Positions 10,150 through 12,722 of a stretch of 55,834 nt of DNA are shown here, piece after piece. The DNA is from Bacteroidia bacterium (GTDB taxonomy: Bacteria; Bacteroidota; Bacteroidia; JAIBAJ01): contig JAIBAJ010000011.1 of NCBI GenBank assembly GCA_019695265.1, positions 1 to 55,834 of the forward strand, read 5' to 3'. The notes under the pieces are model-generated. The model had not been told where the DNA came from, did not search any database, and was given only the letters and a program-made list of their open reading frames with translations. The translations under genes and the position numbers were made by a program. Position 1 is the stretch's first letter, and every line of letters begins with the position of its first letter.

Positions 10150-10190
10150 TTGTTTCTAAATGTAATAATATACGGAAAAAGATTGGGCTA

Positions 10191-10334
10191 CGGTCGGGTA
10201 GGGATAGAGCCGGTTACCCCACAGGTAAGAGACGCCTTAGCGGCGATTACCGAGGAGTAACAGCGATAGCCCGACCATTCGCCTTGCACCCAATTCGAGG
10301 GAAGGGAAATAACTATTGGCGAATGGGACCCGCC
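10191..10334 (-). repeat. Divergent structured repeat, copy C
   Basis: On the minus strand the module order is that of the main type, but most bases differ. It reads GGCGGGTCCC; left stem CCATTCGCC pairing with GGCGAATGG (plus-strand 10318-10326 and 10275-10283); GCTATCGCTGTTACTCC; then GGTAA pairing with TTACC around GCC-GCTAA-GGC; then GGGGTAAC and CTCTATCC. The closing stem is GTTAC/GTAAC where other copies have GTAG/CTAC, so paired bases changed together. It starts 35 bp downstream of the minus-strand MurD-like gene, in the same orientation, and also lies 41 bp after the convergent alkB. Confidence 0.75.
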
Positions 10335-10369
10335 AAATAATAAAAACGAAGAATAAATAAAAGGTAGAA

Positions 10370-10987
10370 CTAAGCGGCTGCCATACGTTCCTTATCCCTT
10401 AAAATCTCTAGGGTTTTAACAGCTTTTTTGAACAAGGCACCTTGGTCCTGGTTTTTTTCCAATTTAGGGTAAATTGGGGAGGCCGGACTAAAAATTACGG
10501 CATTGTTGGTATTCCCGAAGAATTTAGACAATTCAACCGCTTCGGTGGTACTGTTGGCGCTTAAGATAATGGTCGAATAATCCATTAATTTGAGCATGGT
10601 TTGACTATTTCGATCACCAACAACGATGATTCCAACTACTTTTTCGTGGATAATTTTACTAAGTTTATGCAACTTATTAATATCGTCCGATTCGTTCATC
10701 ACCCAAACAACCTTCTTTTCGGGAATAAATTGCAGCGCTTCTAAAGCATCGGTAAGGCAAGCACTCAAGGAGTCATTGTAATAGGTAACACCTTCAATTT
10801 GAGCAACTTTCTCACATCTGGAATGACCGGAATAGATATCGGAAACACTTTCAGAAACGATTTCCTGATGTAACATTAACAGCAAGGTATCAAAGTCATC
10901 ATCCGGAGGAGCGATTAGGTCAGTATGTTGAGAAGTTCCAATCATTTTTCGACGAGTAAAAATAGAAATTCTTTGAGATCTTAACAT
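10370..10987 (-). CDS. Stand-alone MurD C-terminal-domain homologue
   Basis: A 205-residue protein. From residue 56 it aligns by eye with the C-terminal (Mur ligase C) domain of MurD: RCEKVAQIEGVTYYNDS corresponds to the HRLE-x-V-x-x-x-x-GVxYxNDS region, and FSPASPIYPKLEKNQDQG then LFKKAV (166-190) corresponds to SPACASxDxFxxFxxRGxxF. A Rossmann-like VVWVMNESDD / VVGIIVVGD core lies between. The UDP-binding and ATP-binding domains of MurD are absent. The MurD motif NDSKATN reads NDSLSAC, so the Lys is replaced by Leu74. It cannot be an intact ligase; a regulatory or decoy role is only a guess. The first 55 residues are unassigned; an alternative start is Met15. Confidence 0.65.
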   Translation of the reverse strand: MLRSQRISIFTRRKMIGTSQHTDLIAPPDDDFDTLLLMLHQEIVSESVSDIYSGHSRCEKVAQIEGVTYYNDSLSACLTDALEALQFIPEKKVVWVMNESDDINKLHKLSKIIHEKVVGIIVVGDRNSQTMLKLMDYSTIILSANSTTEAVELSKFFGNTNNAVIFSPASPIYPKLEKNQDQGALFKKAVKTLEILRDKERMAAA

Positions 10988-11144: not shown

Positions 11145-12722
11145 ATGCAAAGGATTATTTGGTCTTCATTGATTATTTCCTTATTATGGATTAATCAAAT
11201 AAATGCACAGACTTGGGCTACTGATGTTGCTCCTATTTTATTTAGCAAATGTGGGAGTTGTCATAATCCGGGAGGAGTTGGACATTATTCATTATTGACT
11301 TTTGAGGATGCTTTTTATTTACGGTATTCCATTCAGGATAAAGTTGTAACCGGAAAAATGCCACCTTGGCCTCCGGATACCACCTATAATCGTTTAGCTC
11401 ATGAACGAATTTTGAGCCAGCAGGAAATACAAACAATTTCATCCTGGGTAGATAACGGAGCTGCAAGTGGAGATTTATCTATAGCACCCCAACCTCCGGT
11501 TTACAACAATGGTCCGGAGTTGTTGGATTACGATTTGGAATTAACTATGCCAACTTACACTGTTAATACCGTATCTGATTTGTATCGGTGTTTTGTTTTA
11601 CCTCCCAATTTAACTCAGGATAAAATGATTAGCGCCTTAGAGGTAATTCCGGGGAATAAGAATATTGTTCACCACGTTTTAGTTTTTTCTGATACAACCC
11701 ATCAAGCCGCTGCCTTCGATGCCGCTGATTTAGAGCCGGGTTATACCAATTTTGGAGGAATTGGAACACAGAATCCGACTTTATTGGCCGGCTGGGTTCC
11801 GGGTTCCACTGCCATGAAACTGCCAACCAATTTTGGAATAAAATTGTTTGCGAATGCGGATGTGGTGATTCAAATTCATTACCCCAGTGCGGTGTTTAAC
11901 CAAGCAGATAGCACTAAAATTCGCATAAAGTTTGCCTCCTCAACCACCGGAATAAGGCAAGTCAATACTGCACCCATTCTGAATCATGTTTTTGGATTAA
12001 CCGATGGACCATTAGTTATTCCTCCAAATACCACCAAGACTTTCCATGAAACCTATACCATACCGGCTGTAAATGTTTCTGTTTTAAGCGTGGCACCACA
12101 TATGCATTTGATTGGTAGAAAGATAGTTGCATATGCTGTGTCACCGGCACAAGATTCTATTCCTTTTATACGGATAAATGATTGGGATTTTCATTGGCAA
12201 GGTTTTTATAATTTTAAAAAAGTGGTTAAAATTCCGGCAAGTTCCACTCTGTGGGGAGAGGCCTTTTATGATAATACCACCGCCAATCCATTTAATCCTG
12301 CTAATCCACCTCAAACAGTTAGTTTGGGCGAAGGAACAAATGATGAAATGTTCTTAGTTTATTTCCAGTACACTCCGTACTATCCCGGTGATGAAAATAT
12401 AGTAATTGATAGTTCAGATTTTTTTACCGGAACTCAAGAATTTGATTTTTCAGATAAAATTAAAACCTTGCAAGTTTATGAACCCTATCCTAATCCGGCC
12501 GGGTCAAACCTGTTTCTGGATTTCTACAACCCATCTTGTTCCAATGTTCAATTGAGAATTAGGGATTTAAATGGAAAAATTCTGCTCTCCGAAATGTATG
12601 AAGACATTTTACCCGGCGTAACAACCAAGAAATTTAATGTGGAAACATATAGCCGTGGTACCTATCTTTTTGAATTGGAATCCAATGGGTTAATTCGTTC
12701 AAAAACCTGGATTAAGGAATAG
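11145..12722 (+). CDS. Secreted cytochrome c / copper monooxygenase fusion with T9SS tail
   Basis: A 525-residue exported protein. Order: signal peptide (1-21); cytochrome c domain with CGSCH (Cys36, Cys39, His40) and candidate axial Met72 in GKMPPWPPD; then a type II copper, ascorbate-dependent monooxygenase-like (PHM/DBM) region. Likely copper ligands by analogy with PHM are His176-His177 (NIVHHVLVF) and His245 (QIHYPS) for one site, and His319/His321 (APHMHLIG) and Met402 (NDEMFLVYFQY) for the other. A C-terminal sorting domain (about 445-525; YPNPAGSNLFLDF, then GTYLFELES and SKTWIKE) directs export through the type IX system. Family enzymes hydroxylate carbon using O2. The fused cytochrome could deliver the electrons. 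Substrate unknown. Confidence 0.85.
   Translation: MQRIIWSSLIISLLWINQINAQTWATDVAPILFSKCGSCHNPGGVGHYSLLTFEDAFYLRYSIQDKVVTGKMPPWPPDTTYNRLAHERILSQQEIQTISSWVDNGAASGDLSIAPQPPVYNNGPELLDYDLELTMPTYTVNTVSDLYRCFVLPPNLTQDKMISALEVIPGNKNIVHHVLVFSDTTHQAAAFDAADLEPGYTNFGGIGTQNPTLLAGWVPGSTAMKLPTNFGIKLFANADVVIQIHYPSAVFNQADSTKIRIKFASSTTGIRQVNTAPILNHVFGLTDGPLVIPPNTTKTFHETYTIPAVNVSVLSVAPHMHLIGRKIVAYAVSPAQDSIPFIRINDWDFHWQGFYNFKKVVKIPASSTLWGEAFYDNTTANPFNPANPPQTVSLGEGTNDEMFLVYFQYTPYYPGDENIVIDSSDFFTGTQEFDFSDKIKTLQVYEPYPNPAGSNLFLDFYNPSCSNVQLRIRDLNGKILLSEMYEDILPGVTTKKFNVETYSRGTYLFELESNGLIRSKTWIKE

Follow-up and report, generated by a model that had tools for sequence, protein, structure and literature searches.

A stand-alone MurD domain 3 gene in a Bacteroidia genome and its relatives between murD and ftsW

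The gene P0001, found in a genome of the class Bacteroidia, encodes MurD domain 3 preceded by the helix that closes domain 2. It lies in a window of 55,834 nucleotides, which is the whole stretch of DNA taken up in the earlier note. MurD is an essential and much studied drug target, and in many Bacteroidia the cell-division cluster appears to encode the mobile domain of this enzyme once more, as a free copy. P0001 suggests that this family of stand-alone domains (mini-MurD) also gave rise to a copy without the binding residues. The features of the gene and its surroundings are given in Table 1.

Domain content and integrity of P0001

The reading frame of P0001 is intact, with an ATG start and zero internal stops. 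The NCBIfam murD model TIGR01087 matches residues 39-191 at model positions 289-440 of 441 (E 6e-16). At 58.5 bits, and with only these positions covered, the match lies below the cut-off for a full-length MurD of 211.95 bits. The Pfam model Mur_ligase_C (PF02875) is likewise sub-threshold, with 14.1 bits against a gathering cut-off of 28.4. Pfam gave no match in P0001 to MurD_N or Mur_ligase_M, the UDP-binding N-terminal and ATP-binding middle domains. MurD chains from the PDB match the single sequence of P0001 at 7.8e-5 and a profile of five isolated copies at 1.8e-12.

The AlphaFold model of P0001 was made with an input alignment of 48 sequences from the window and public genomes and has a mean pLDDT of 83.5. 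The pLDDT exceeds 90 over most of residues 57-166 and 177-204 and is poor for residues 1-30 and the 173-176 loop. In a Foldseek search of the PDB with this model, the top 29 matches were all MurD structures. MurD C-domains were in the AlphaFold alignment, so the independent support for the MurD fold comes from the sequence matches. The earlier note had described a MurD C-terminal domain without the ligase core, which could be compared in structure with MurD domain 3, and this description was borne out by the TIGR01087 and Foldseek matches and by the lack of ATP- and UDP-binding domains. The blocks that it named, GVTYYNDS, FSPASPIYP, and DQGALFKKAV, are all present.

A frameshifted ligase core upstream of P0001 was considered and rejected. 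The full-length MurD profile was run over the entire genome; it found no remnant of such a core, and on the contig of P0001 only positions 290-440 were matched. The gap between P0001 and the divergent gene that starts at 11145 is only 157 bp. The expectation that no ATP-binding domain lies upstream was thus upheld.

Table 1. Features of P0001 and its flank, in window coordinates
Feature	Position	Strand	Basis
Stand-alone MurD domain 3 gene (P0001, 205 aa)	10370..10987	-	ORF, TIGR01087, AlphaFold, Foldseek
Codons of helix 31-53, equivalent to the final helix of MurD domain 2, the hinge into domain 3	10829..10897	-	AlphaFold; aligned with IRKEIIRESLSDF of full MurDs
Codons of residues 57-193, MurD domain 3 Rossmann-like fold	10409..10819	-	Foldseek top match MurD, E down to 9.5e-9; TIGR01087 to position 440
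Leu74 in place of Lys348 of E. coli MurD (NDSKATN to NDSLSAC)	10766..10768	-	Alignment; Lys348 function as given in PMC3527612
Ile172 in place of Ser415 of E. coli MurD (SPACAS to SPASPI)	10472..10474	-	Alignment; Ser415 function as given in PMC3527612
Asn179 in place of Phe422 of E. coli MurD	10451..10453	-	Alignment, in a loosely aligned loop of low model confidence
Terminator-like stem-loop, 34 bp past the P0001 stop, inside a dispersed genomic repeat	10316..10336	-	Weak; 1 found against 1.0 expected in shuffles

Stand-alone MurD domains in the same genome and across Bacteroidia

The genome of P0001 is 99.4% complete. Its murD is full length (447 aa), retains its motifs intact, and follows mraY directly in the order mraZ-rsmH-ftsI-murE-mraY-murD. 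The full murD in a dcw cluster for which a search had been proposed is therefore present, and P0001 is an extra protein. It is not the orphan that it was called. A second stand-alone MurD domain 3, P0002 (184 aa, NDSKATN intact), lies directly upstream of ftsW in the same genome, on a contig other than that of the murD cluster, and genes of this kind occur commonly across Bacteroidia. The break in the dcw cluster falls exactly between murD and P0002. On contig C2 (L034:9493-11262), ftsW and its mini-MurD are split from the remaining dcw genes, and an OmpA/TPR-like gene is found where murG is expected.

P0001 itself lies neither between murD and ftsW nor beside ftsW, the ftsW-side copy of its genome being P0002. 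It is flanked by genes for a desaturase and for a secreted protein that resembles Cu monooxygenases, and it is in no cell-wall operon. The second neighbour (11145-12722), which is divergent from P0001, resembles Cu type II monooxygenases and has a type IX secretion C-terminal tail. A GC-rich intergenic element of 160 bp (10181-10340) with strong folding (z -2.4) is also found in the window. It has at least 41 copies in the genome at 70-93% identity, and one of these is located some 125 bp past murD, at the dcw break point.

MurD-C matches were surveyed in 60 and then in 296 genomes of Bacteroidia. Roughly a fifth of them (about 60 of the 296 genomes, from about 19 family codes) contain two or more such matches, and the phylogenetic spread raised in the earlier note is thus wide. 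In about 30 neighbourhoods examined, the order mraY-murD-mini-ftsW is constant and the mini-MurD has 156-231 aa. Many named public genomes, for the most part from uncultured bacteria that are Flavobacteriales-like, show this order as well, and some of these have two minis in a row. Two differing stand-alone MurD domain 3 genes are consecutive between murD and ftsW at L101, L110, L115, and L135, as well as at L078:7064-8141. P0001 has the domain content and size of this family, which is a single domain 3 plus the hinge helix in about 155-230 aa.

The minis match murD best in NCBIfam and Mur_ligase_C best in Pfam, and neither collection has a model dedicated to a stand-alone MurD domain 3. A literature search that covered few subscription papers turned up no account of truncated, duplicated, or stand-alone MurD, of a free-standing MurD domain 3, or of a mini gene within dcw. 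The stand-alone MurD domain family of Bacteroidia is apparently undescribed.

Two clusters (L149:866-1417 and L168:5926-6477) have the order mraY, stand-alone MurD domain 3, ftsW, and contain no full murD. No full-length murD was matched elsewhere in these two genomes, which are drafts of unknown completeness. These clusters would fit a spare domain that acts in trans and completes a MurD lacking its own domain 3. However, the genome of L168 has only three middle-domain Mur ligases above cut-off, so the absent genes are likely on absent contigs. In addition, the murD in the genome of P0001 is full length with intact motifs, and the residues that such a part would require are absent from P0001. 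As an account of P0001, a spare domain is hardly credible.

In a tree of MraY, MurD domains 1-2, and FtsW, most genomes that bear a mini belong to a single large clade, within which absences are scattered, and two smaller groups are found elsewhere. In the domain 3 tree, the C-domains of full MurDs all form one clade (99/97) and every stand-alone copy is outside it, which fits a single old partial duplication. P0001 is on a very long branch of 2.4 changes per site. It groups with the isolated copies at 97/76 when all are included, with L057 at 99/94 when the G003 group of family f4 is left out, and with the G003 group at 64/82 when L057 is left out, in each case among long branches. A separate origin of P0001 straight from murD is unrejected by the AU test (p 0.42). 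A late duplication of the ftsW-side copy is disfavoured by the tree and is also unrejected (p 0.07).

The isolated copies span three family codes, f1 (the genome of P0001), f4, and f46. Nine were used in a profile test, in which five built the profile and the remaining four were from f4. They score E 1e-74 or better, and the next best match is about 1e-44. In f4 and f46, an aldehyde dehydrogenase gene adjoins the isolated copy in convergent orientation, and this common neighbour makes these copies very likely orthologous. Orthology of P0001 to them (G003, G045, G049, G085, and kin) by synteny was rejected, as the best aldehyde dehydrogenase lies on contig C25 and P0001 on C11. Judging from profile and tree, the relocated copies of the two other family-level lineages are likely the nearest kin of P0001, which would belong with them.

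Selection was estimated from pairs of genes. For mini-MurDs overall, dN/dS was 0.02-0.16. The dcw-type minis gave 0.02-0.04 in families f4 and f10 and 0.09-0.16 in two other lineages. In one family, the dcw-type mini (0.02-0.03) is similar to its own MurD C-domain. In some lineages, selection on the free domain appears as strong as on MurD's own domain. The mini evolves faster than MurD in other lineages, and family f12 shows the reverse, with 76% identity for the mini versus 53% for the MurD C-domain (L072:7551-8099 and L082:6648-7196). The isolated copies of six f4 genomes gave mostly 0.08-0.13, with one pair at 0.23. Among the genomes covered, the order to which the window belongs is represented by its own genome alone, and P0001 has no close relative, so selection is measurable only in related copies. 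In these relatives, stand-alone MurD domains of both types are under purifying selection.

It is quite improbable that P0001 is a pseudogene decaying after a murD duplication. Its lost catalytic residues, long branch, and lack of operon context are what such a gene would show. However, the frame of 205 aa is intact at about 30% identity to kin, its domain is modelled with high confidence, and the values of the related isolated copies disfavour decay.

Substrate-site residues and the possible role of P0001

Four residues of E. coli MurD, Lys348, Thr321, Ser415, and Phe422, hold the D-Glu portion of its ligands (PMC3527612). The replacement of the Lys of NDSKATN that had been noticed in P0001 is real, and the residue is Leu. 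The equivalents of Ser415 and Phe422 are also replaced, by Ile and Asn (Table 1). Asn71, Asp72, and the Ser-Pro-Ala turn are kept in the alignment. The D-Glu contacts are lost in all five isolated copies that were aligned, and the equivalents of Lys348, Ser/Thr415, and Phe/Tyr422 are all kept in 24 of 52 dcw-type stand-alone copies.

The amino-acid binding suggested earlier is unsupported for P0001 by these residues. A sensor of D-Glu or of UDP-MurNAc-peptide could report precursor supply, and the contacts kept in the 24 dcw-type copies would suit one. P0001 and the other isolated copies have lost them, however, and the UDP-MurNAc-L-Ala and ATP sites are mostly on domains 1 and 2, which P0001 lacks. 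D-Glu sensing by P0001 is unlikely, and an amino-acid sensor of either kind is highly improbable.

Catalysis by P0001 is excluded because the ATP and UDP domains are absent. The preferred reading, held with somewhat less than even confidence, is that P0001 is a non-catalytic pseudo-domain, a relocated descendant of the mini-MurD family that may serve as a regulator or adaptor of MurD or of Mur-complex assembly. In Bacteroidia, a duplication that took in only the 3' end of murD would have set domain 3 and its hinge helix apart as a separate gene. The original copy, between murD and ftsW, would act on the MurD step or on Mur/FtsW assembly. MurD domain 3 swings against domain 2. The mini could tune MurD by occupying the docking site of this domain on domain 2, or it could tether MurD to MurG/FtsW. 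The strong selection, the retained hinge helix, and the location between murD and ftsW suggest docking of the parent family on MurD, or a bridge from MurD to membrane partners. P0001 would be a relocated copy that kept the fold and lost D-Glu binding, and would probably be a regulator or adaptor rather than an enzyme or amino-acid sensor.

Since P0001 is in no cell-wall operon, its link to MurD is by descent only. That it inherited the wall role of its parent family is put forward by inference only, and the branch of 2.4 changes per site makes a new role unrelated to the wall possible. The main rival is a repurposed fold, in which P0001 has left cell-wall work and is a small Rossmann-like binding or scaffold protein elsewhere. 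Both a repurposed fold and a partner of cell-wall ligases had been raised in the earlier note, and either may apply. Its position away from dcw with the desaturase and Cu monooxygenase-like genes as neighbours, its lost site residues, and its very long branch would fit, as would the isolated copies of two other lineages that adjoin aldehyde dehydrogenase and not wall genes. However, no conserved functional partner was found, the best aldehyde dehydrogenase of this genome being on another contig, and the adjacent genes in the relatives are convergent, hence co-regulation is not implied. A repurposed fold is considered rather unlikely, though a serious candidate.

For the stand-alone MurD domains as a whole, strong selection beside murD suggests a non-enzymatic role in wall building. 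A broader proposal, which is doubtful and offered tentatively, is that they are a widespread undescribed regulator of precursor synthesis. The dcw mini-MurD would tune MurD or couple it to FtsW/MurG, and the binding-dead paralog P0001 would be an antagonist or adaptor. If the mini does tune MurD or link it to the membrane steps, wall synthesis would have a control point that is new, and the mini may reveal what keeps the Mur enzymes together.

Comparison with known systems

P0001 shares with full MurD the fold, the order of elements, the N-D-S and S-P-A motifs, and the last helix of domain 2. Unlike full MurD, it has no domains 1 and 2, its equivalents of Lys348, Ser415, and Phe422 are replaced, and its score is far under the family cut-off. 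Mur_ligase_C (PF02875) covers the same part of MurD, and the dcw-type stand-alone copies exceed its cut-off, whereas P0001 is under it and is unattached to a Mur_ligase_M domain. The dcw mini-MurD between murD and ftsW has the same domain content and size, but P0001 lies away from dcw, and the residues for substrate contact, kept in many minis, are missing from it.

A Mur-ligase-derived subunit is also used in another wall reaction by MurT-GatD, which is a weak Foldseek match to P0001. Unlike P0001, MurT keeps the ATP-binding middle domain together with its own C-terminal domain. MurG is a binding partner of MurD and a possible scaffold for Mur enzymes (PMC6420597). MigC of Acinetobacter baumannii, which binds and inhibits MurD, is a precedent for a separate protein that acts on MurD, as is proposed for P0001, although MigC is an unrelated COG0523 GTPase (PMC12208494).
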